The notes under the pieces: model-generated
What the model was told of the DNA's origin: nothing
What the model saw: only the letters and a program-made list of their open reading frames with translations
The model's database searches: none
Translations under genes and position numbers: made by a program
Part shown: one piece after another, positions 4,524 to 45,468 of the stretch
Layout: every line of letters begins with the position of its first letter
Position numbering within the stretch: position 1 is the first letter of the stretch
From: an uncultured Clostridia bacterium
GTDB lineage: Bacteria; Bacillota; Clostridia; Christensenellales; CAG-314
DNA length: 64,000 nt
NCBI GenBank assembly: GCA_947586855.1
Contig: CANPXV010000007.1
Span: forward strand, 1-64,000
Reading direction: 5' to 3'

Positions 4524-5366
4524 ATGCTGGACTTTTTGAAAAATATCTTCACAAACGTAGATACAAAAGCGCTGGTGGCAAGGATAATCTTTGCGGTGGT
4601 GCTGACGTTTGTGTATTATTTGTTCTTCTTTTACGCAAAAAAGCGCAATTTGCAGCTATACACCTACATAGTGACGGGCACGCTTGCAGTGTTGTTTGCC
4701 CTGTCCTTTTTGGTTGCGCCGCAGGAGCTAAGCGTGTATGTCTACCTTGCATTGGGATTGTTGGCGGCGTTGGGCCTGATGTTGTTTATATCGGATATCA
4801 ACCGTCACATCTTCCGCCTCTCGCTAAAACGCAAAGTCTTTCGGGATAGCCTTGCCGACCACTACGGCAGCGAGGACCTGTCCAAATCGGTTGCGGAGAT
4901 CGTCAAATCCTGCTTGCGCCTTTCCAAAACGGATACGGGTGCGCTCATCGTGCTGGCCGACCACATGTCGGACGAAATTTTGGATAGCGGCATCAAGATC
5001 AATTCGGAAATCACCGCCGAGCTTATCGAGACGCTGTTCTTCCCCAAGACGCCCCTGCACGACGGCGCCGTGATCATCACCGCAAACAAAGTGGTGGCGG
5101 CAGGCTGCTATTTGCCCCTTACGCAGGCGCAAAATCTGCCCCGAGAGTTTGGCACTCGTCACCGTGCGGCGATAGGCGTTTCGGCCGCCTTCCCCGATTG
5201 CACAGCCATCGTTGTCAGCGAAGAAACGGGCATCATCTCTGCCATGCACGACGGCAAGATCAAGCGCTATCTGGATAGCCGCCAGCTGCAAGACCTGCTT
5301 GATTGCGCCATGGGCTTGTCCGACGAAAGCGCCGAAGAAAGATTGTGGGGAGAAAACAGACAATGA
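4524..5366 (+). CDS. cdaA: membrane diadenylate cyclase (DisA_N domain)
   Basis: N-terminal TM helices, TPLHDGAVII and GTRHRAAIG catalytic motifs. Confidence 0.95.
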   Translation: MLDFLKNIFTNVDTKALVARIIFAVVLTFVYYLFFFYAKKRNLQLYTYIVTGTLAVLFALSFLVAPQELSVYVYLALGLLAALGLMLFISDINRHIFRLSLKRKVFRDSLADHYGSEDLSKSVAEIVKSCLRLSKTDTGALIVLADHMSDEILDSGIKINSEITAELIETLFFPKTPLHDGAVIITANKVVAAGCYLPLTQAQNLPREFGTRHRAAIGVSAAFPDCTAIVVSEETGIISAMHDGKIKRYLDSRQLQDLLDCAMGLSDESAEERLWGENRQ

Positions 5367-10996: not shown

Positions 10997-13900
10997 TTAA
11001 CCTACGCCGCCTGTAATTTGTATCTTGTTGACTATATTCAGCATTTCGCTCACGAAGTCCACCAACAGCATATTTTTCCATTCATAGCCGTGTTCTTCGC
11101 TCGGCGAGCCGTGGTGTTCGCTTATCTCTTGCCAGAATTGCTCAGCCGTCAGGCTTTCGGGGCTTGTTGCTTTTTTCATCAAATATGTGGTCAGATTGCA
11201 GTCGTCGTGTTTTTGTCCCTCGGGCAAATCTTCCTCAAATATGATGGCCAGCAGTGCAATATTTTCGGGTTCCAACGTCATCATTCCGCTGTCCATGATG
11301 TCGCCCACGGTCAGATCCTGTGCAATACCCGTCATCTGGCTGCCCGTCAGTTCGTCGATACGCAAGTTGGCGATCTTGCCGTTCAGCCCCTTGGCTATCG
11401 AGCAGGGATATTGGCCACCGCCGCCCGGCGTTCCGTGGGAGTGAGTTTCGTCAGCGTCGTTTCTGTCGTCGCAGTCGTACCACACAAAGCCGTAGCAGCG
11501 GAATGTGTGCTCCTTGTGCTCAACTTTGCCGCAGGTGGAGCCCTTGCCATCCTCGTCCACATCGCCGCAAACATCCGTTTCATGGGTGTGCAGTTCCTTC
11601 TTGCAGGTCAGTTGCGCCTCGTAGTAGACGTTGTTTTTCACATCGTGGTAGTACAGTTTGCCGTCGCCGCTGCCCTGCACCTTCACGATTTCGTCCAGAT
11701 AGCTGCGTTTTTCGTTGGTGTCCTTTGCAACGGTCTCAAACGTTTTGCCCGCCACCTCCTTGGTGACGTCGTTGCGCTCAAAGTTCATGGCTACGCCCAC
11801 ATACACGGCGTCCAGCTCGTCGCTCAGGTCGCCAATCTTGACGTCCTTCAATTCTTTCAGCAGGCCGTTGGCGTTGTCCAGCGTCAGCACGTCGCCCAGC
11901 GGGGTGTCGTTTACGGTGTCGGTGATGGTGTCGCCGTCCATTTCGCTCACTTTCAGCCGAGCAAGCCTGCCGATAAGTTTGTCGGCGGCAACGTAGCAAT
12001 CGTCGGTGTGTTGAACGTGTTCGGGATCGCCCTCGTGCTTGCAATTAAGCGTGTACCAATTGAAGCGGTAGCAGTCCAGACTGTGCGTGTGTTCCTCTTT
12101 GTCGCAGCTACCTAAGCCCTCGCAACTTGCGTCGTGCGTGTGCTCCTCTTTGGTGCAGTACATCGCAGCGTCGTACCAGATTCCGTCGTCGCCCAGCAAT
12201 GCAAAGTGTTCGCTGTCGGCGGTGTTGCGTTTAAGTTTGCCCAACTCGTCCGGGCCCGTCATGTCCGCATAGCCGCTGCTCACGTCCACGGGCTTTTTGA
12301 CGTATTTCAAAAATGCGCCCAGGTACATGTCGTCGATTGCGCCGCCCAGCTCGCCGATAGGCACGTCCGCAAGGGACAGCAGCGATTCGGGCACGTTGTC
12401 GCCCATCACGTCCTGCAACGTAAAGCTCTGGATGGTGTCGTTGAGGTCGCCCAACTCGTCCACCCGTTCATTGGCCAGCTTGCCCATCATGCCGTCGGCC
12501 ACGATGTAATAGTTGTTTTCGTCGTTGTCCTCGGTGGGCAGCCATTCGCCCGCCGCTTTGTGGTGGTCGGCCTCGGTGTGATCGACGATATCGCACACCT
12601 TGTACCACACATAGCCGTAGCAGCTTGCGTCATGGACGTGGTGCTTTTCGTTGGTGCAGTCGGCGCCGTCCACTCCGCAGTTCTCGTCGTGGGGCACTTC
12701 CTTTTTGGTGCAGGTCAGCGCAGCCTCGTACCAGATGTCGCCGCCCTGCTTGATGGCGTTGCCGCTTGTGTCCAGCCGCACTTCGCCATCCGTCACCTTG
12801 CCCGTTTCGTCGGTCAGTTCGGGCAGAGTTGCGCCGCCGACAGTTGCGCCGTAGTTGTTTTCGGTGACGCCCTCGCCGATTTCCGTCACGGTCTTGCGCC
12901 TGTACTCCAAAAAGTCGCCCAGATACATGCCGTTGATGGCGTCATTGAGGTTGCCGATTTTTTCGTCCTTGATACTGCCCAGCATATCGGGCACGTCGTC
13001 GCCCAGCACGTCCGCCAGGGTAAAGTCCTTGATAGTTTCGTCGAGGTCGCCCATGTCGCCCACTTTTTCGCGGGCCAATTTGGACATCATGCCGGTGGTG
13101 GGGATGTAGTGCACCTCCACGCCGTCCTTATCCTCAAATATCCACTCGCTTGTCTTGTCGCACTCGTGATCGCCATCGATTTTTTCGTACCACACAAAGT
13201 CGTAGCAATCCACGCCGTGGACGTGGTGGGTCTCGTCGGTGCAGTTGCCCTCTTCGCCGCCGCAATCGTCGGTGTGATTTTTCTCTTCTTTGTCGCAGAC
13301 GTACACCGCCTCATACCAGGTTTCGCCGTCGTCCTCCGTCTTGGCATAGGCCTTTTCTGCGCCGTCTTGTGTTTCCACAACAACGATTTCGTCCGTCTCA
13401 AACACGACTGTGTAGCCCGATCGATCTTCGGGCACGTCCACGGGCCTGCGCTTGTAGTGGAGGAAGTCTCCCAAGTACACGTTGTCGATAGCGGCGTCCA
13501 TCTCGTTGATGGGGGTATCTTTCAGCGATTCCAGCATTTCGGGCACGTTGTCGCCCATCACGTCTTGCAGAGTAAATTCCTGCACGGTCTCGTTGAGGTT
13601 GCCCATATTGCCCACATGTTCGTTGGCCAGCTTGCCCATCATGCCGTCGGCCACGATGTAATAGTTGTTTTCGTCGTTATCCTCGGTGGGCAGCCAATCG
13701 CCGGCGGCAGCGTGGGCGTCAGCGTCGGTGTGTTCGACGTCCTCGCACACCTTGTACCACACAAAGCCGTAGCAGCTTGCGTCGTGGACGTGGTGCTTTT
13801 CGTTGGTGCAGTCGGCGCCGTCCACTCCGCAGTTCTCGTCGTGGGGCACTTCCTTTTTGGTGCAGGTCAGCGCAGCCTCGTACCACATTTCGCCCGCCTG

Positions 13901-16549
13901 TTTGATGGCGTTGCCATCTTTGTCGATCTTGACCGCACCATCCGACACTTTGCCCTCTTCGTCTGTCAGTTCGGGCAGGGTGACATTGTCAAAGTCCGCC
14001 TCGTCCTTGCCCAGATCTTTCAGCGTTTTGCGGCGATATTCCAGCAGCTCGCCCAGATACATGTTGTCGATAGCTTCGTCCAGCTTGCCGACGGGCGTAT
14101 CTTTCAGACTGCTCAGCATGCCGGGCAGGTCGTCTCCCATAACCTCGCCGAGGGTCAGCTCCTTGGCCTTGTCGTTGAGGTTGCCCAGGTTTTTGACCTG
14201 TTCATCGGCCAGCTTGCCCATCATGTCGTTGTTGCGGACGTAGTATTCTTCCTCGCCCTCAGGCAGCCATTCGCCCTCGTGCGTGTGATCCTCTTGGGTA
14301 TTTTCGCACTTTTCGTACCACCAGAAGCCGTAGCAGCTTGCGTCGTGGACGTGGTGGGTCTCGTCGGTGCAACTTTCGGGGGCGCCGCACTCCTCGGTGT
14401 GGGGCACTTCCTTTTCGATACAGGTCAGGCGCGCCTCGTACCAGATGTCGTCCGCCAGCTTGGCGTATTCCGTCACGGCCTCGTCGCCCTCGCCGACGAG
14501 CTTGCATTTCAGCCCGTCAATTACGTTGCCGTTGATGTCTGTGACGTCCTTGGTGTAGGTAGCCAACTCGCCCTCGGTCAGCGGTCTGCGCTTAAAGGAC
14601 AGCAATTCGCCCAGATACATATCGTTGATGGCGTCGTTCATGTCGCCGATGGGCGTGTCCTTGATACTATCCAGAATATCCGGCACGTCGTCGCCCATCA
14701 CGTCCGCCAAGGTAAACTCCTTCACGGCGTCATCCAGGTTGGACATATCGGCAATTTGCTTGTTGGATAGCTTGGCCATCATGCCTTCCAGCGGCACAAA
14801 GGGCAGTTGTTCGTCGTTGTTGTCCTCGGGCACCCATTCGCCCTCGTGGGTGTGATCGGACTCGGCGTTTTCGCACTGCTCGTACCACACAAAGCCGAAG
14901 CAGCCCGCCACATTGTGGGTGTGCTCTTCCAGACCGCAAATTTCGCCCTTGCCGTCGGGGTCGATAACGCCGCACTCAGCGGTGTGTTGATGTTCTTCCT
15001 TTATGCAGGTAAGCCCGCCCTCGTACCAGGTTTTGCCGTCGGGCGAAAGGCCCAGCACATTGCCTTCGGCGTCCTTTATCAGATATTTGCTCGGTTCTTC
15101 GTCCTCTTCGGGCGTTTCGTTTTTGTATAGCTCTATCACGTTGCCCTCGGGCTGCTCGTCCAGCTTTCTCATGCGGAAGCCCAGCAGTTGGCCGAGATAC
15201 ATGTCGTCTATGCCGCCGTCTATCAGTTCGCCTATGGTCATATCGGACAAATTTTCAAACATACCGCTCATTTCCTGCCCTTCAAGCAGCTCGTTGAGGG
15301 GGATATTCATCATCTTGTCCATCAGGGCGTCACTTTCCGGGTCGGTCATCATGCCGATCGTCACGTCGGCGATGGCGGCGTACAGTCCGGTTGCGGCAGC
15401 GTAGTGCACGCCGTCCAGTACAAGGTCGCCTTCGGCCTCTTCTTCGGCGGCAGTGGTGCTGTACCACACAAAGCCGTAGCAATCGATGGTGTGCACGTGC
15501 TCTTCGTCCTCGTCGGTGCACACAAGTTTGGCCTCGTATCTGTCCGTGCGAGGCTCCTCCTCGCCCTCCTTTTCGACTACCTTCACCAGCGCAAAGTCAT
15601 CGCCGTTTTGCCACAGAGTGTAGTTGTCGTTTTTCAGATCCGTCTCGGTGTAGCCCTCAAATGCGGCCTCGTCCAGCAGATTGCGTTGCAGGTTGACCAG
15701 GTCGCCGAGGTACACGTCGTTTATCATATCGTCGGGGTTCAGGTTGCCCTCTGCGTCGATGAGGTCGGCCAGGGCATTTTCGCCGAATATTGCCGTCAAA
15801 AACGTGCTTGCGTCGCCCAACAGTTCGGTCAGCGGCAGCTTGCCCATTTCGTCAAAGGCGCCTCCCAGCTTAAACTCCAACAGCATATTGCCGTCCATAC
15901 CGCCCAGCAGGGGCCCCAACTTGGCTTGTCCGATGGCCCAGATCAGCGAGTTATCCTCTGTTTTGTCCAGCGGCAGCATGCCCAGCGCCATTTCCGACAG
16001 GCGCACGTCGGCAAACACGGTGGCAATGCCGTCTTCCGCCATCAGGTCGTTCATGCTGAATGCGGACAGCTTTTCCAGCACCGAGTCGGGGAACATTGCA
16101 TTGGCCGAACCGTCCTCGCCTTGCTCTCCGCCGGCAAACATATTCAGCAGGGCGGGTATCACGCTCACCCTGATCTGATTCATCGCCATGTTTCTGTCGC
16201 CGCCGATCAGCTCAAAAATGGGCACATCAAGCACTTCTTGCGGCACAGGCTTGCCCCCAAACAGCTCGCTTGGGTTGATATTATATTTCTCGCAGAACTG
16301 CCCAAAGGTAAAGTACTGCCCGTTCTCGTCCGTGATGCCCACCTTGCTGCGATACAGCTCGCTTACCGATTTGTATATATCCAGCAACGACATGTTGGCC
16401 AAGTCGCCCAGGTACTTTACGCTGTCGTAGGACAGGTCGCTGGGTTTGATAACCGTAGCGGCAATAAGGATGCCTCCGGCGATTGCTCCGATAAAGAAGA
16501 TAATGCCGAAAATCATTCCCAAGAAAAATGCCAATACTCTTCTTCCCAT
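10997..16549 (-). CDS. giant N-terminally anchored repeat protein with about eight YLG modules and Cys/His-rich segments
   Basis: MGRRVLAFFLGMIFGIIFFIGAIAGGILIAA anchor; repeated (I/L)xxxYxGxxxxxxR and CTKKEVPHDENCGVDGADCTNEKHHVHDASCYGFVWYKVC; start chosen at MGRR with GAGG RBS. Confidence 0.85.
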   Translation of the reverse strand: MGRRVLAFFLGMIFGIIFFIGAIAGGILIAATVIKPSDLSYDSVKYLGDLANMSLLDIYKSVSELYRSKVGITDENGQYFTFGQFCEKYNINPSELFGGKPVPQEVLDVPIFELIGGDRNMAMNQIRVSVIPALLNMFAGGEQGEDGSANAMFPDSVLEKLSAFSMNDLMAEDGIATVFADVRLSEMALGMLPLDKTEDNSLIWAIGQAKLGPLLGGMDGNMLLEFKLGGAFDEMGKLPLTELLGDASTFLTAIFGENALADLIDAEGNLNPDDMINDVYLGDLVNLQRNLLDEAAFEGYTETDLKNDNYTLWQNGDDFALVKVVEKEGEEEPRTDRYEAKLVCTDEDEEHVHTIDCYGFVWYSTTAAEEEAEGDLVLDGVHYAAATGLYAAIADVTIGMMTDPESDALMDKMMNIPLNELLEGQEMSGMFENLSDMTIGELIDGGIDDMYLGQLLGFRMRKLDEQPEGNVIELYKNETPEEDEEPSKYLIKDAEGNVLGLSPDGKTWYEGGLTCIKEEHQHTAECGVIDPDGKGEICGLEEHTHNVAGCFGFVWYEQCENAESDHTHEGEWVPEDNNDEQLPFVPLEGMMAKLSNKQIADMSNLDDAVKEFTLADVMGDDVPDILDSIKDTPIGDMNDAINDMYLGELLSFKRRPLTEGELATYTKDVTDINGNVIDGLKCKLVGEGDEAVTEYAKLADDIWYEARLTCIEKEVPHTEECGAPESCTDETHHVHDASCYGFWWYEKCENTQEDHTHEGEWLPEGEEEYYVRNNDMMGKLADEQVKNLGNLNDKAKELTLGEVMGDDLPGMLSSLKDTPVGKLDEAIDNMYLGELLEYRRKTLKDLGKDEADFDNVTLPELTDEEGKVSDGAVKIDKDGNAIKQAGEMWYEAALTCTKKEVPHDENCGVDGADCTNEKHHVHDASCYGFVWYKVCEDVEHTDADAHAAAGDWLPTEDNDENNYYIVADGMMGKLANEHVGNMGNLNETVQEFTLQDVMGDNVPEMLESLKDTPINEMDAAIDNVYLGDFLHYKRRPVDVPEDRSGYTVVFETDEIVVVETQDGAEKAYAKTEDDGETWYEAVYVCDKEEKNHTDDCGGEEGNCTDETHHVHGVDCYDFVWYEKIDGDHECDKTSEWIFEDKDGVEVHYIPTTGMMSKLAREKVGDMGDLDETIKDFTLADVLGDDVPDMLGSIKDEKIGNLNDAINGMYLGDFLEYRRKTVTEIGEGVTENNYGATVGGATLPELTDETGKVTDGEVRLDTSGNAIKQGGDIWYEAALTCTKKEVPHDENCGVDGADCTNEKHHVHDASCYGYVWYKVCDIVDHTEADHHKAAGEWLPTEDNDENNYYIVADGMMGKLANERVDELGDLNDTIQSFTLQDVMGDNVPESLLSLADVPIGELGGAIDDMYLGAFLKYVKKPVDVSSGYADMTGPDELGKLKRNTADSEHFALLGDDGIWYDAAMYCTKEEHTHDASCEGLGSCDKEEHTHSLDCYRFNWYTLNCKHEGDPEHVQHTDDCYVAADKLIGRLARLKVSEMDGDTITDTVNDTPLGDVLTLDNANGLLKELKDVKIGDLSDELDAVYVGVAMNFERNDVTKEVAGKTFETVAKDTNEKRSYLDEIVKVQGSGDGKLYYHDVKNNVYYEAQLTCKKELHTHETDVCGDVDEDGKGSTCGKVEHKEHTFRCYGFVWYDCDDRNDADETHSHGTPGGGGQYPCSIAKGLNGKIANLRIDELTGSQMTGIAQDLTVGDIMDSGMMTLEPENIALLAIIFEEDLPEGQKHDDCNLTTYLMKKATSPESLTAEQFWQEISEHHGSPSEEHGYEWKNMLLVDFVSEMLNIVNKIQITGGVG

Positions 16550-16553
16550 AGTG

Positions 16554-17309
16554 TTACCTCTCGATTTGTTGCAGATCTTTGCGCTCGGGCACAAAGGAAT
16601 CGAAAATCATATTGTCAAAGCTGTCGTGCAGCGTGTCGTATTGCTGCTGACTGCGCACCGTCCAGCACAGGATGGGGATTTTTTTTGCGAGGCGCCTCAC
16701 CGCCTTGTTGGTTTGGATGGTGGCGGCGTCGTATGCCACAAATTGAGTGCCGTTCCAGCGGTGCAGCTTCAAGTCTCGCAGTATCCACCGCCTGATTGGC
16801 CCAAACGCCCCCTCAAACGAGCAGGACAGCTGCCCCCGTATCACATCGGGCGCATGCACCTTGAACCAATGCACCACAAACGGGTCAAACGACTCGATGC
16901 AGTAGTGCCCCTTGTAGCCCAGCAGCATATCCCTTGTTTTTTGTTCCACCTCGCCGATATCTTTGTGCGGCTTGATTTCCACCACGATATTGCTGCCGTT
17001 GGCCGCCGCCAAAAACTCCTCAAAGGTGGGGATAACGCAGTCCGTGCCCAACAGCCTCAGCTGACGCAGCTCGGCAAAGGTCTTGTCGCACAGCTTGCCC
17101 TCTGCGCCCGTCATGCGGAGCAGGGTGTCGTCGTGGAAAACCACCAACACGCCGTCCGACGTCATCTGCACGTCCGTTTCTATGCCGAAACTGCTTTGCG
17201 CCGCCCTTTCAAATGCGGGCAGACTGTTTTCGGGCAGGCCGACGTTGTCAAATAGCCCCCTGTGGGCGATGTAGATATCCGTCAGCCACTTGTAATCTTG
17301 CCTTATCAC
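16554..17309 (-). CDS. glycerophosphodiester phosphodiesterase family protein
   Basis: IAHRGLFDNVGLPENSLPAFERA, GIETDVQMTSDGVLVVFHDDTLLRMTG. Confidence 0.92.
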   Translation of the reverse strand: MIRQDYKWLTDIYIAHRGLFDNVGLPENSLPAFERAAQSSFGIETDVQMTSDGVLVVFHDDTLLRMTGAEGKLCDKTFAELRQLRLLGTDCVIPTFEEFLAAANGSNIVVEIKPHKDIGEVEQKTRDMLLGYKGHYCIESFDPFVVHWFKVHAPDVIRGQLSCSFEGAFGPIRRWILRDLKLHRWNGTQFVAYDAATIQTNKAVRRLAKKIPILCWTVRSQQQYDTLHDSFDNMIFDSFVPERKDLQQIER

Positions 17310-21719: not shown

Positions 21720-22275
21720 TTCGATCACTTTGCTCTTTCCTCTCTCCCTCGTTTTTTTTGTGACTTCCCATTTTTTTATAAAATTTTCACCCAATTGAGG
21801 TCAAATACCCTCATTTTATCCCCGATTTTTTATAGAAATCACGCTTTTACTACGTCTCCATTTTTTACGGTAGCTTTTTTTGTGTCGGTGGTGCAATCGT
21901 TCTCTCTTCTTCTCTTTCTGCGCCCTCTTCCTTTTTTTCTTATATTTTTTAACCGTCTACCTCTCTTCTCCCCTTCTATTTTTTTTGTTTCGTTTCTTTT
22001 TTTTCTTGTCCAATTTATTTTTTTGAAAGAAATACATGATTTTCACTCATTTTAATGAATTATCCCGAGATTTTATTATGAAGTGGCGGACCTTTTTTTT
22101 TGTTACCCTCTCTTCTCCCTCCTCTCTCCCCTCTTTCTTTTTTTTTATCTTTTCACCTCTTCGCAGCCCTCTCCCTCTCCTCTCTTTCCTCTCTTGTTTC
22201 CTTTATTTTCTTCTTTTCTTCTCTCTTCTTTTTTTTCTTTTCTAATTTTTATCTCTCCTCTTTTTTTCGCTCTTT
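21720..22275 (+). repeat. long pyrimidine-rich low-complexity tract
   Basis: ~550 bp dominated by C/T runs on + strand. Confidence 0.85.
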
Positions 22276-22530
22276 TTTACTTATTGGATGTGGGTGGTGG
22301 TGCGGTGAAAGGCGTGCGGAGGGGCTCAACTATGTCAGAAATCGGCGTTTTGTAGAATACTATTTCAGACATAACACCCTCAATATCCCTACTTGGGGGC
22401 AATTTGCCGCAAAATAGACGCAAAATATAGGCATATATAAGTTGATTTATTTTATTTCTTCTGCTATAATTGCATAGTCAAAACTTTGTTCAAACGCCTT
22501 TGAGCAAAATTTTTCTAAGTGGGTGGGCAA

Positions 22531-27842: not shown

Positions 27843-28952
27843 ATGAATATTGTACGGTATGTAAGGCAGACCAAGGCCACCTTTGACGAGTTGCCATTCA
27901 ACGAGGTGGACAGCCTCATCCTGTGCGAGCTGTCCTATCTTCAATTCGATCGCTCGGTGTGCGGCCGTCCCGCCAAAACGATGGGGCAGTTGTGCCAAAA
28001 CATCGACGCCCTTGTTGCGGACACCCTTTTGCCCAAGGACAACGTCAAGCTGCTCAAAGAGGTGGCCACCAGCCCCCGATTTGCGCCCGTCAAGGTGGGA
28101 TATTTCCGTCAGTGCAACAGCGCACGCAGGGAGATCCGCTTTGCCGCAATGACATTTGAGCTGACCGAAAATCTCCATTATATCGCATACCGTGGCACGG
28201 ATATCACACTGCTGGGCTGGAAGGAAGATTTCAACATGGCGCTGCTCAAAACCATACCCTCGCAAAGGTTGGCGCTCAACTATTTGCAAAAGTTTGCGCC
28301 GTTGTTGCAGGGCAGGCTGCTGATGGGCGGCCACAGCAAGGGCGGCAATCTGGTGGTATATGCGGCGGTGTACGCCCCCGACGAGTTGCGCAACCGTATC
28401 GATGGCGTCTACGACCACGACGGCCCGGGCTTCAAGCAGGACATCTTTGGCGACCCGCGCTACTTGCAGTTGCAGCCCCGCATACACAAAACTGTGCCGC
28501 ACGACTCCATCATAGGCATGCTGCTAAACACCATGCAGCAATATGAGGTGGTGGAGAGCGACAGCATATCCGTCATGCAGCACAACCCATTCAGTTGGGT
28601 GATCACCGAGCAAAACGCCTTCAAAAAACTGCCCCAAACGGCACGCACGTCGCAGGCCACCGAGCTTGCGCTCACCTCATGGATAGCAAGCCTCGATCGA
28701 CCCACCACCAAAAAGCTGGTGGACGCACTGTTCACGGTGGTGTACGGCAGCGGCGCAACAACCGTGCCGCAGCTGACCGACCATGTGTTGGTGCACCTGC
28801 ACAAGATGAAGCAAGCATTCCACACGCTGGACGAGGACAGCCGCAATCTGTTGCTTGGCAACGGCAAGGAGCTCATCAAGCTGTGGTTCGACTCTATGCG
28901 GCACGTCCGCAAGGGCGCCCAACCTGCGCTTTCTCCCGATACAACGTTATGA
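27843..28952 (+). CDS. DUF2974 (Mbeg1-like) alpha/beta hydrolase-fold protein, paralog 1
   Basis: MGGHSKGGNLVVYAA, YDHDGPGF, MQHNPFSW. Confidence 0.88.
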   Translation: MNIVRYVRQTKATFDELPFNEVDSLILCELSYLQFDRSVCGRPAKTMGQLCQNIDALVADTLLPKDNVKLLKEVATSPRFAPVKVGYFRQCNSARREIRFAAMTFELTENLHYIAYRGTDITLLGWKEDFNMALLKTIPSQRLALNYLQKFAPLLQGRLLMGGHSKGGNLVVYAAVYAPDELRNRIDGVYDHDGPGFKQDIFGDPRYLQLQPRIHKTVPHDSIIGMLLNTMQQYEVVESDSISVMQHNPFSWVITEQNAFKKLPQTARTSQATELALTSWIASLDRPTTKKLVDALFTVVYGSGATTVPQLTDHVLVHLHKMKQAFHTLDEDSRNLLLGNGKELIKLWFDSMRHVRKGAQPALSPDTTL

Positions 28953-30049
28953 ACATCATCGGATACGTCAGAAAAAACACAGCCGATTTCGGGCAGGCGC
29001 CCCTCAACGAGGTGGACAGCCTCGTCTTTGCGGAGTTGGCCTATATGTCCTTTGCAAGGGCGCAGTGTTCCCTGCCCAACAAGACTCTTGGCGAACTTTG
29101 CCAAGACATCGACAAGCTGCTTGCGGGCACCCTTTCGGTGTTGCACAAGCACAATGTGCAGTTGTTGAAGGCCATATCCGCCAGTCCCCGATTTGCGCCC
29201 GTCAAGGTGGGTTTTTTTCGCCAACGCAACTGCGACGCCAAGGAGCAACGCTTTGCCGCCGTCACCTTTATGCTGTGCGACGGTGCCTACCACATAGCCT
29301 TTCGGGGCACGGGCGTTTCGCTGGTTGGCTGGCGAGAGAACCTCAAAATGTCCCTTTTGGACGTGATCCCCACCCAGCGCATAGCCCTCGCCTATCTGGA
29401 AGAGGTGCTGTCTCGTTTGGAGGGCAGTTTTACTGTGGGCGGCCTCAGCAAGGGCGGCAATTTGTCGGTGTTTTCCGCCACGTTTGCCCGCAGCGATTTG
29501 CAGCAGCGCATCGCCGCCGTCTACAACCACGACGGCCCGGGGTTCAACTTCAACATTTTCGAGGACGAACGCTACCAACGCATAGCCCAACGTGTGCGCA
29601 AAACGGTGCCGCACGACTCCATTGTGGGCATGCTGCTCACGGCGTCGCAGGTCTACGAGGTTGTGGATAGCACCAACCTGTCGATAGCCCAGCACGACCC
29701 GTTCAGTTGGGTAGTCAGGGATATGACGTCCTTCAAAAAACTGCCCAAAACAACCCACGGCTCCCGTGCCACCGACACGGCGCTTTCCGAGTGGATTGCG
29801 TCCATGGATATGCCCACCCGCCGACGGTTTGTCAACGCCGTTTTTGCCATTGTGCACGGCAGCGGCGCAACGGAAGTGGGAGATTTTCTCTACCGTCCCC
29901 TGCAAAAGATTCGCCTCATGCGCAAGGCCTTCGACGCCCTGCCCGACGGCGACAAGCAGCTCATTTCCCACGGCGGCAAGCAACTGCTGTCCCGATGGTT
30001 CGGTGAGATTTTTGCCTTTGCCCGCAGGCGTGCTCCCCACAGGGAGTGA
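28949..30049 (+). CDS. DUF2974 (Mbeg1-like) protein, paralog 2
   Basis: VGGLSKGGNLSVFSA, YNHDGPGF, AQHDPFSW; ATGA overlap with paralog 1 stop. Confidence 0.88.
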   Translation: MNIIGYVRKNTADFGQAPLNEVDSLVFAELAYMSFARAQCSLPNKTLGELCQDIDKLLAGTLSVLHKHNVQLLKAISASPRFAPVKVGFFRQRNCDAKEQRFAAVTFMLCDGAYHIAFRGTGVSLVGWRENLKMSLLDVIPTQRIALAYLEEVLSRLEGSFTVGGLSKGGNLSVFSATFARSDLQQRIAAVYNHDGPGFNFNIFEDERYQRIAQRVRKTVPHDSIVGMLLTASQVYEVVDSTNLSIAQHDPFSWVVRDMTSFKKLPKTTHGSRATDTALSEWIASMDMPTRRRFVNAVFAIVHGSGATEVGDFLYRPLQKIRLMRKAFDALPDGDKQLISHGGKQLLSRWFGEIFAFARRRAPHRE

Positions 30050-30064
30050 CGGGCGCCACGCACC

Positions 30065-31150
30065 ATGAACCTCACAAGTTATGTCAAAACTCACAAGCAA
30101 ACCTTTGCGCAGTCCCCTCTTTGTCAGGCGGATAGTCTTGTGTTTTGTCAGCTTGCCTATCTCAATTTTCCCCGCAAGTTTTGCGGCGCCCCCAAACGCA
30201 CGTTATCACGGCTTGTGGAGGCAAATGGTCTTGCCGAGGGCACATTCTACGTCAAATCCAACAACAAGTTGATAGCGGCAGTGGCGGCCAGCCCCCGTTT
30301 CGGCGATGTCAGGGTGGGCTTCTTTCGTCAGCGCAACAGCGACAAGCGAGTGGTGCGCTTTGCCGCCGTCACCTTTTTGCTGCCCGACGACAGCGTCTAT
30401 GTGGCTTTTCGGGGCACGGATACCACCGTTTTGGGCTGGAAAGAAGATTTTTATATGTCCTTCCTCAAAGTGATACCCTCGCACATTCTGGCGCAAAACT
30501 ATCTGCAAACCGTCGGCAGCACGCTATCCGGCAGGCTGTATGTGGGCGGCCACAGCAAGGGCGGCAACTTGGCGGAGTACTCGGCGTGCATGGCCTCGCC
30601 GCAGATACAGCAGCGCATCGAGATGGTGTTCAACCACGACGGCCCGGGGTTTGTGGACAGCATCTACCACACCGAGCAGTACCTTTGCATTGCCGAGCGT
30701 GTCAACAAAACCATACCGAGAGACTCGATGGTGGGCCTGCTGCTCAACACTCGGCAGGACTATCAAGTGGTGGACAGCACCAGCCTGCTGCTGTTGCAGC
30801 ACAACCCCTTCACCTGGAAAATTTTACAGGACGGCTCCTTCAAGAGGCTGAACGGCCTGTCCTACGTCTCGCAAGTGTTTGACGAAACGCTTACCGAGTG
30901 GATTTTCGGCATGGACCTGCCCGCCCGCCGCAAGCTGGTTGGGTGCATATTTGCCGTGTTGGAGGGCAGCGGCTGTCAAAACGTCACCGACATCGGCAAA
31001 AAATTGGTCAGCTCGGTGCGAGGCATGCACACCGCCTACAAATCGCTGGACGACGACGGCAAAAAACTGATGACGCAGGGCGGCAAAGAGCTGCTTCGCC
31101 TGTGGTTGGGCACGTTTTTTGTCCGCCCCCGCAAACCGCGCAACCTCTGA
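30065..31150 (+). CDS. DUF2974 (Mbeg1-like) protein, paralog 3
   Basis: VGGHSKGGNLAEYSA, FNHDGPGF, LQHNPFTW. Confidence 0.88.
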   Translation: MNLTSYVKTHKQTFAQSPLCQADSLVFCQLAYLNFPRKFCGAPKRTLSRLVEANGLAEGTFYVKSNNKLIAAVAASPRFGDVRVGFFRQRNSDKRVVRFAAVTFLLPDDSVYVAFRGTDTTVLGWKEDFYMSFLKVIPSHILAQNYLQTVGSTLSGRLYVGGHSKGGNLAEYSACMASPQIQQRIEMVFNHDGPGFVDSIYHTEQYLCIAERVNKTIPRDSMVGLLLNTRQDYQVVDSTSLLLLQHNPFTWKILQDGSFKRLNGLSYVSQVFDETLTEWIFGMDLPARRKLVGCIFAVLEGSGCQNVTDIGKKLVSSVRGMHTAYKSLDDDGKKLMTQGGKELLRLWLGTFFVRPRKPRNL

Positions 31151-31212
31151 TCCCTCGCCGCCCCCTCTTTTCTTCTCTTTCCCTTTTCTTTTATCGCTCG
31201 CTCCATCTCTAC

Positions 31213-31640
31213 AAGCCAAGCAGCAGTGTAAGACGTCCAACAAAAAAACGGTAACATAAATCTGCTGTCCTCAGTGGTGGATCCAAACGCTTTTCGTCAA
31301 CATCAAGGCAGCACAGCAATCATACGCCTACCCCAAACGCCCCTATGCTCCTCACTTTTTTTTCTTTTCTCCTCTCTCCTCTTATTTCTTTTTTCTTCTC
31401 CCTCTCCCTCTTCTCTTTTTTCTTCTTTTCTCTCCCTTTTCTTTTTTATATCTCCTCTCATTTTTTCTTTTCTCTTTTCCACTCGCCCCAACCCCACAAT
31501 CCAAGAGGAAGTGCAAGACGTTCAACAAAAAATCGGTAACATAAATTGCCTGTCCTTAGTGGTGGAGCTAAACGCTTTTCGTCAACATCAAGGCAGCACG
31601 GCGCTCATACAACCCACCCCAACGCCCCCACGTCCCTCAC
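31213..31640 (+). repeat. two ~140-bp direct repeats 285 bp apart, each followed by a CT-rich tract
   Basis: aagacgtccaacaaaaaaacggtaacataaat...aaacgcttttcgtcaacatcaaggcagcac versus aagacgttcaacaaaaaatcggtaacataaat...aaacgcttttcgtcaacatcaaggcagcac. Confidence 0.9.
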
Positions 31641-31945
31641 TCTTTTTCTTTCTTTTCTTCTCTCTCCTCTTATTTCTTCTCTCTTTCCTTTCTTTTTTAT
31701 CTTTCTTCTCCTCCCTCACCCTCATCTTCCCTCTTCTCACTCCTTTTCTTCCCTTTCTTCTCTTCCCTTTCTTCTCTTTCTTTTCTTCTCTCCCCTCTTT
31801 TTTTCTTTATCTTTCTTCTCTTCCCTCTCTTTTTTTCCTCAATCCTCAATCACCCTCTCTTTTCTTCCTCTTCTCTCTTCTTTTTTCTCACTCTTTTTTC
31901 TTCTTTTTCTCTCCCCTCTCCTCTCCCCTCTCCCTTCCCTTTTTC
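31625..31945 (+). repeat. pyrimidine-rich low-complexity tract upstream of spo0A
   Basis: long C/T runs on + strand. Confidence 0.85.
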
Positions 31946-32100
31946 GACGAAAAGCGGCGCAAGTGCGGCGCACAATTTCCAAAAATACAAAATTTCGGAA
32001 AATTTTCGACAAAAAAACCAAAAAATACAAGATTTTACAAAATTTTCGACGTACTTAAATGTGCTACAATGTAGTCACCAACAAAAAGGAGCTATTGTCA

Positions 32101-32829
32101 GTGATTACAATTGGTTTGATAGGTCAATCGGGCCTCAAAGAAAGATTGCAGGAAAACGAAGATTTCGAGGTGCTTTTCGACGTGGAAGGCAAGGACGCCC
32201 GCCGCTGCTTGGACGAGCACATCCCCGATGTGGTGGTGACGGAACTGATGATGAACGGCGAGGACGGCTACGCCCTTTTGGAGAAGTACCGAGACGCCCG
32301 CTTTATTGTAGCGTCCGAGCTTAAAAGCGAGGTTTTCGTCATCAAAGCGCTGGAATTGGGCGCCAAGTACTACCTTGTCAAGCCGATAGAGTACAACGTG
32401 TTAGAGCAGCGTATCCTCAACGTCTACGAGGGCGACCGTCTGGGCGGCAAAGTGGTGCGCAAAAAGACCGTCTCGGAAAAAACTCTGGACGAGCGTATCA
32501 GCAGCATATTTGTCAGCGTGGGGATACCTGCGCACATCAAGGGCTACCAATTTTTGCGAGAGGGCATCAAGTTGGCGGTGGACGACCCACCCATCATCAA
32601 TGCGATAACCAAAACACTCTACCCGTCCATTGCCAAGCGCTTTGATACCACGCCCAGCAAGGTGGAGAGGGCCATTCGCCACGCCATCGAGGTGGCCTGG
32701 AACAGGGGCAAGATCGAAAACATCAACAGTGTGTTCGGCGTCAAGGTCTACAATGCGTCGGAAAAGCCCACCAACGGCGAGTTTATCGCCCTGCTTGCCG
32801 ACAAAATGCTGTTGGAGTGCGCCTACTGA
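32101..32829 (+). CDS. spo0A: Spo0A-family sporulation response regulator with degenerate receiver
   Basis: C-terminus VGIPAHIKGYQFLREGIKLAVDDPPIINAITKTLYPSIAKRFDTTPSKVERAIRHAIEVAWNRG; GTG start with AAGGAG upstream. Confidence 0.92.
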   Translation: MITIGLIGQSGLKERLQENEDFEVLFDVEGKDARRCLDEHIPDVVVTELMMNGEDGYALLEKYRDARFIVASELKSEVFVIKALELGAKYYLVKPIEYNVLEQRILNVYEGDRLGGKVVRKKTVSEKTLDERISSIFVSVGIPAHIKGYQFLREGIKLAVDDPPIINAITKTLYPSIAKRFDTTPSKVERAIRHAIEVAWNRGKIENINSVFGVKVYNASEKPTNGEFIALLADKMLLECAY

Positions 32830-32983: not shown

Positions 32984-33574
32984 ATGCAGTACTTGAAGAA
33001 GGAAATCAGGGAAAAGATTTTAGCGTCTGCCGTGCAGGAATTCAAAGAGCAAGGTTTTGCCGATGCCTCCATCAGGAACATAGCCAACAATGCCGAAATT
33101 TCACTTGGTAACGTCTACCGATACTACGCCAACAAAGAGGCGCTTTATTTTGCCGTGGTAAACCCCTTTATGGAGAGCGTCCGCCAATTTATCGGCAACG
33201 ATTTTCCCTTTGAGGAGAAGTCCATGAAGGAGATTTCCGAGATGGTGATAGAGTTCATCACCACCTACCACGACGAGCTGCTTATCATCCAAAAGGGCAA
33301 CACTGTCCACTACGATACCTTTGTCAACTATATTATCGAGGTCATCGCCGGCCAGATCCGCCAGATGGTGCGCAGCGTTTTCCCCGAGATTGGCGCCAAG
33401 ATCGAAAATCCCGATTTTTACCCCGCCATTGCAGAGGGCTTTTTGACCAGCTTTTTCAAGATCCTCAAAAACGGCGACCCCACCGAAGTGTTGGAGCGCA
33501 AGGCGAGAGAGCTGATGACCTTCTATTTCGGCCACATGAAGGACCGTTTCCGTCACTTCGATCTGGCCGAGTGA
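32984..33574 (+). CDS. TetR/AcrR family regulator
   Basis: ILASAVQEFKEQGFADASIRNIANNAEISLGNVYRYYANKEALYFAVV. Confidence 0.92.
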   Translation: MQYLKKEIREKILASAVQEFKEQGFADASIRNIANNAEISLGNVYRYYANKEALYFAVVNPFMESVRQFIGNDFPFEEKSMKEISEMVIEFITTYHDELLIIQKGNTVHYDTFVNYIIEVIAGQIRQMVRSVFPEIGAKIENPDFYPAIAEGFLTSFFKILKNGDPTEVLERKARELMTFYFGHMKDRFRHFDLAE

Positions 33575-44677: not shown

Positions 44678-44744
44678 ATCCCGCAGACGGCTCACGCCGC
44701 CTGTTTTCATTTCGCCACTTTTTCGCTCGATCCCTGACCCACAA

Positions 44745-45300
44745 ATTGCTCTCCCCACTCTCTTTCTTCCTCTTTTTTCTCTCCCTTTTTTCTTCTCTTT
44801 CTTTTCTCTTTCATTTTTTTGATTTTTCTTTTTTCTCCCGCCCGCCCATTTTTCGTCGCTTAATTTCTCACCCATCTCTCAAATTTTAATATTTTTTTGT
44901 AATTTTTTCCATATTCTTCTCGCATTTTTTCTCTTTTTCTCGCCGCCGATAACCTCACCCTCGTCCGCCGCCTCCTTTCTCCCTTCCTCTATCCTCTATT
45001 CTCTCTTCTCTCTTTTTATCTTTCTCCCTCTCTTTTCTCTCTTTTATTTTTTTCTTTGATTTTTCTTTTTTCTCCCGCCCGCCAAATCTCCGTTCTCAAA
45101 CTCAAATTTTAATAATTTTTTGTAATTTTTTTCCTGTTCTTCTCGCATTTTTCTCGCCGCCGATACCCTCACCCACTCGCCCCCTCTCTTTTTTTCTTCT
45201 CTCTCTTCCTTCTCCTCTCTCTTTCTTCCTCTTTTTTCTCTCCCTTCTTTTTTCTTTTTTTCTTTTCTATCTTTTATTTTCCCCCTTTTCTTTCTTCCCA
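44745..45300 (+). repeat. pyrimidine-rich tract containing two ~130-bp direct repeats
   Basis: ttgatttttcttttttctcccgcccgcc...ctcaaattttaat...ttctcgcat...tctcgccgccgata repeated at ~44818 and ~45056. Confidence 0.85.
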
Positions 45301-45468
45301 CCGCCCGTTTTCGCCGAGGGCCGCTCGGTGTTTTTGCGCTATCCCGCTTTTCGGGTGTGGCGGATAATAAATAATAATATATTTACACTATATTTTCGCT
45401 CAATATCGATTGAAAAAATTTTTTCTCTGTGCTACAATATACTATTGAGAAATATCGGAGCGCAAATC

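Follow-up and report, generated by a model that had tools for sequence, protein, structure and literature searches.

Reviews of sporulation state that all endospore formers initiate the process via Spo0A phosphorylated at a conserved Asp (e.g. PMC11210211), and a study of Epulopiscium found the phosphorylation site conserved in all Spo0A homologues aligned there (PMC3416734). Among aspartate-less receivers, Glu is the commonest replacement (26%), and the first acidic residue is usually kept (65%) (PMC4395418). The same source, citing Green et al. 1991, states that an Asp-to-Glu change alone is insufficient for constitutive activity in several regulators, Spo0A included. In addition, truncated Spo0A is carried by gut phages (PMC10294663). 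Among open-licence papers, we found no report of an aspartate-less receiver in Spo0A, and no paper naming both Spo0A and D56E. Aspartate-less receivers are a known class, and their occurrence in Spo0A appears to be new as far as that literature reaches.

The window, i.e. the whole stretch of 64,000 nucleotides analysed here, belongs to a genome that is ~93% complete (G000); its relatives are referred to as genus g1 (25 genomes) and family f1 (~11 genera). The spo0A gene lies at 32101..32829 on the plus strand and encodes 242 aa, comprising an aspartate-less receiver (residues 1-110), a linker (111-127) and a Spo0A_C DNA-binding domain (128-242). Its start codon is the GTG at 32101, with the ribosome-binding site AAAAAGGAG at 32083-32091; a longer frame starting from the ATG at 32059 was rejected because it overlaps the promoter. 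The protein scores 212.4 bits against the TIGR02875 spore_0_A equivalog (curated cut-off 200), and Pfam gives 136 bits for Spo0A_C and 47 bits for Response_reg. The effector domain is ~57% identical to 1lq1 with a conserved recognition helix, in agreement with the strong conservation of the DNA-binding domain pointed out in an earlier note on this DNA. Moreover, 0A boxes are present in the promoters of spo0A itself and of spoIIA. By these family scores and promoter sites, the protein is Spo0A by descent and belongs to the orthologous family. The earlier note had considered that it might be a divergent paralog of a canonical Spo0A encoded elsewhere; a search of the genome revealed no second canonical or full-length Spo0A, and the sole other match has no receiver. 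That match (G000:C28:3853-4305, L141) consists of a Spo0A_C domain only and is flanked by leuS and a gene for an NAD(P)HX dehydratase-like protein; distant relatives are carried by 13 viral contigs.

The receiver residues were mapped by alignment of the window protein with B. subtilis Spo0A. The acidic pair D10-D11 is replaced by G8-Q9 (32122..32127, plus strand), and a deletion right after it removes five residues from the canonical beta1-alpha1 region (GLIGQ-----SGLKE); the pair is lost in all 21 genus members. With the acidic pair gone and five residues deleted, the Mg2+-binding loop is missing. Glu48 (codon GAA, 32242..32244, plus strand) occupies the position of the phospho-Asp56, Lys94 (32380..32382, plus strand) that of the catalytic Lys108 (K108), and both are invariant in the genus. 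Thus, the replaced metal-binding DD pair, the Glu aligned with D56 and the retained catalytic Lys, all reported in the earlier note, were recovered and extend to the whole genus. Its reading of LTA as VAS, on the other hand, needs a correction by one residue: Ser72 (32314..32316, plus strand; Ser or Thr throughout the genus), not Ala, is the partner of the switch Thr, which makes the change a conservative one (A-S-E under L-T-A). As to the features of a canonical regulator, the phospho-acceptor Asp and the two metal-binding acidic residues after beta1 are lacking, and the switch Ser/Thr and the catalytic Lys are present as Ser72 and Lys94. Read from these residues, the pocket can bind no Mg2+ and can accept no phosphoryl group on an Asp; the Glu-Ser-Lys set, which surrounds the phosphoryl group in activated receivers, remains, with catalysis lost.

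An AlphaFold model of the window Spo0A (mean pLDDT 86, 36 sequences) contains all five strands of the receiver, with helix 1 shortened. The model receiver superposes on 1qmp, the phosphorylated Spo0A receiver, with an rmsd of 1.6 Å. For the effector domain, the best PDB matches are 1lq1 and 1fc3, the DNA-bound 1lq1 superposing at 1.3 Å. The receiver is predicted to keep a complete REC fold, the superposition speaking to the fold and not to the activation state. A REC fold without the phospho-Asp, as seen in the alignment and the predicted model, is what characterizes aspartate-less receivers.

Full-length Spo0A was found in 21 of the 25 genus genomes, all 21 carrying Glu, Ser/Thr and Lys and lacking the acidic pair. 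Two named MAGs have the same pattern: CANRHP010000007, whose isolate name 'Lapin' points to a rabbit source, and CANOTO010000004. Because it is shared genus-wide and by two independently named MAGs, the pattern is real, and sequencing error or chance was rejected. Mean identity within the genus is 79% for the receiver and 95% for the effector domain, and the median pN/pS is 0.16 and 0.05, respectively, a rough measure as synonymous sites are near saturation. By this measure, the receiver is under purifying selection across the genus; its invariant parts are Glu48, Lys94 and the greater part of beta3, beta4-alpha4 and beta5-alpha5. No full-length spo0A was found in G003, G010, G011 and G017, of which the last three retain the spoIIA 0A box, and several spo0A copies in the genus are situated close to contig ends. 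The four missing genes are probably assembly gaps.

SpoIVA was found in 24 of the 25 genus genomes, sigma-E in all of them (in some slightly below the curated cut-off), a sigma-K-like protein in nearly all, and SpoIIE-like proteins in all, below the curated cut-off. In the window genome, spoIIAA-AB-sigF lies at ~83-85 kb of C7, the same contig as the window. Judging from this gene set, the lineage, represented by uncultured MAGs, probably sporulates. An 0A box, TTCGACA (opposite strand: TGTCGAA), is located at 32005..32011 (plus strand), 96 bases before the spo0A start codon. Exact TTCGACA occurs ~96 bases upstream of spo0A in 17 of the 21 genus members, in most of them precisely 56 bases ahead of the -10 element; composition-shuffled sequences average 0.27 of 21. 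Since the genus sequences are related, the shuffles overstate the significance. Nevertheless, with synonymous sites so close to saturation, chance inheritance does not explain an unchanged 7-mer at a constant position. Upstream of spoIIAA, the box is found at ~85 bases in 13 of 16 cases, the remaining three having one mismatch at the same place. The regions upstream of spoIIE, taken as a negative control, contained no 0A box in any of 19 genus loci, and a motif scan of the sigE promoter gave no match. A second, imperfect 0A-like site, TTCGACG (32045..32051, plus strand), is present in the window genome only. An extended -10 element with a conserved YAC downstream (GTGCTACAATGTAGTCAC; 32061..32078, plus strand) follows a pattern shared by 19 of the 21 genus members and is a possible operator.

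Within family f1, genus g3 has a canonical DDD receiver; g6, g7, g8 and g9 have lost the acidic pair and retained the Asp, and in g6 and g9 the Lys is additionally replaced by Arg; the phospho-Asp position carries Glu in g1, g4 and g11 and Gln in g10. Since no Glu sequence with this region aligned is acidic at both pair positions, the pair seems to have been lost first, and the order of loss in the family seems to be the acidic pair followed by Asp to Glu. Altogether, the Asp is missing from 47 of 174 Spo0A sequences, with Glu in its place in 35, Ser in 5, Gly in 5 and Gln in 2, and Lys is present in all 47. Residues other than Asp are found in families f1, f10, f11, f15, f28 and f31, all of which have Asp members too, and once in a Lachnospiraceae MAG. 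Given that non-Asp and Asp members share families, the Asp would have been lost independently no fewer than six or seven times if the families are monophyletic; parsimony gave 14 Asp/non-Asp changes on an approximate tree with masked diagnostic columns and a weak backbone. On these counts, loss of the phospho-Asp, usually to Glu, has recurred across the order, in six or more families. Two further arrangements were seen in the family. In g8 (L044, L046), a stand-alone degenerate receiver resembling that of Spo0A is encoded directly downstream of spo0A and is a possible partner subunit; in g7 (G033, G034; L047, L048), a second Spo0A-like protein has a strongly altered N-terminal domain replacing the receiver.

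The window genome encodes four receivers and three histidine kinases; every kinase lies beside its own regulator, and the fourth receiver is Spo0A. No Spo0F or orphan kinase, the cognate inputs for which the earlier note advised a search, was found in this ~93% complete genome, although canonical relatives are alike in this respect: orphan kinases were likewise not found in g3 and f3 genomes with canonical DDD receivers. In four further genus genomes, unpaired kinases numbered zero in G008, G010 and G023, and two, both hybrid, in G013. Because canonical receivers also occur without orphan kinases, the missing kinases are no proof of independence, and the idea that their absence caused the receiver to decay is weakened. 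Dedicated kinases may have disappeared before the pocket did.

A candidate replacement input is the TetR-family regulator at 32984..33574 (plus strand). A TetR-type gene adjoins spo0A in 21 of 21 genus loci, as a rule immediately downstream and in the same direction, and does so also in g4, g6, g7, g9 and g11 (33-83% identity), so that the linkage is confined to six pocket-lacking genera, g1 included. It is absent beside spo0A in the canonical g3, in g5, in g8 and in ~150 loci of other families, and none was seen in g10, where there is little flanking sequence. A search for a TetR operator shared by the spo0A and tetR promoters found none: the pattern conserved at the spo0A promoter (19/21) is not conserved at the tetR promoter. 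By its linkage, the TetR-type regulator is a good candidate for a new input to Spo0A.

Several other features of the window were noted. Just upstream of spo0A, at 27843-31150, three Mbeg1-like (PF11187) genes with 67-69% DNA identity stand in tandem; they are not conserved there in relatives. Intergenic tracts at 31551-31950, 44701-45350 and 21901-22300 have a pyrimidine content of up to 95% in one strand; the tract before spo0A holds two diverged repeat copies (31162-31426 and 31454-31712), and related copies occur on contig C3 and none upstream of spo0A in relatives. On the minus strand, 10997-16594 encodes an 1865-aa repeat protein with recurring Cys/His motifs (e.g. HHVHDASCYGFVWY) and 'MYLGELL'; it may be a surface protein that binds metal. 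In addition, a membrane diadenylate cyclase, CdaA-like as judged by eye, is encoded at 4524-5366.

The earlier note had proposed a phosphorelay-independent or ligand-gated Spo0A. The first part is well supported: the pocket is lost, and no canonical paralog, Spo0F or orphan kinase was found, with selection and 0A boxes kept. We hold it highly probable that the window Spo0A is independent of phosphorylation in one way or another. More specifically, we propose a functional Spo0A that works without Asp phosphorylation, with entry into sporulation set mainly by the amount of Spo0A, to which we give an even chance. The receiver is an aspartate-less pseudo-receiver that has lost the metal-binding acids and kept most of the beta3-beta5/alpha4-alpha5 side. 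Glu48, a plausible phosphomimic, may together with Ser72 and Lys94 hold the receiver in or near a dimerisation-competent state. Because Asp-to-Glu alone often fails to activate, the changes in pair and loop may matter as well, and pair loss and loop deletion may contribute to the phosphate-free competence of a Glu-Spo0A. The level of Spo0A would be raised by positive feedback through its own 0A box, in place of kinase input, and the linked TetR-type regulator may co-set the amount.

For the ligand-gated part of the earlier proposal we found no direct support; it is taken here as a pseudo-receiver gated by a ligand or partner, in which a small molecule, a protein or a Spo0A_C-only paralog controls dimerisation through beta3, beta4-alpha4 (FIVASELKSE) and beta5-alpha5 (YYLVKP...VLEQRI). 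These are the most conserved receiver stretches in the genus, yet the same surfaces form the normal dimer face, and no ligand pocket or partner has been identified. Ligand-binding atypical receivers are known (PMC4395418), and g8 has its stand-alone degenerate receiver right behind spo0A. A Spo0A_C-only paralog is present, in one or more copies, in 23 of the 25 genus genomes, but these paralogs are strongly diverged and share just 22% identity with the effector domain of Spo0A. We consider gating of this kind possible and rather doubtful. Continued phosphorylation of Spo0A through cross-talk from the paired kinases, whether on Glu48 or elsewhere in the protein, is very unlikely; Lys94 and Ser72 are retained and the genome has three kinases, but both metal-binding acids and five loop residues are missing, and each kinase has a neighbouring regulator. 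That the gene is a decaying relic with a drifting receiver in a lineage losing sporulation, as the small genomes, the lower identity of the receiver (79% versus 95% for the effector domain) and a published predictor that rates most gut MAGs of the Christensenellales, the presumed order of this lineage, as non-sporulating (PMC12536801) might suggest, is most improbable in view of the purifying selection, the invariant Glu and Lys, the conserved 0A boxes and the sporulation set retained in nearly all genus members.

A wider reading, which we offer tentatively, is that the whole clade of gut spore formers starts sporulation without Spo0A phosphotransfer, kinase control having been repeatedly replaced in the order by control through the amount or partners of a Glu-Spo0A that is always competent, with new input from the linked TetR-type sensor. 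In this large lineage, phosphorylation at the conserved Asp cannot be the sporulation trigger, and sister genera show graded intermediates. This makes it possible to test how a developmental master switch sheds its phosphorylation input yet keeps its regulon, and in which order pocket residues are lost. It would also bear on the numerous gut Clostridia that are thought to spread between hosts as spores, and on sporulation predictors built on kinase control.

Compared with the Spo0A of Bacillus and Clostridium (TIGR02875; 1lq1, 1fc3, 1qmp), the window protein shares the domain order, an effector domain that is ~57% identical and the REC fold, and the gene shares the 0A boxes before spo0A and spoIIA and a single full-length copy per genome. 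In contrast to them, the protein has no acidic pair, Glu in place of the phospho-Asp and a shortened beta1-alpha1 region, and the gene has no identified kinase or Spo0F input and a TetR neighbour. The phage-borne truncated Spo0A (PMC10294663) is an effector without phosphorylation control, like the Spo0A_C-only paralog of the window genome, whereas the window protein has a folded receiver under selection and is the product of a chromosomal master gene. Because the defining features of a phosphorylation-activated regulator are lacking, the window Spo0A is grouped by mechanism with the aspartate-less receivers such as RitR and ChxR (PMC4395418). Like these, it has a REC fold in which the phospho-Asp is replaced and the Lys, usually kept among them, is present; their DNA-binding output is phosphorylation-independent, as the sequence suggests for the window protein too. 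Unlike typical members of that class, it has lost both acids, carries a Spo0A_C output domain and has sporulation as its output.
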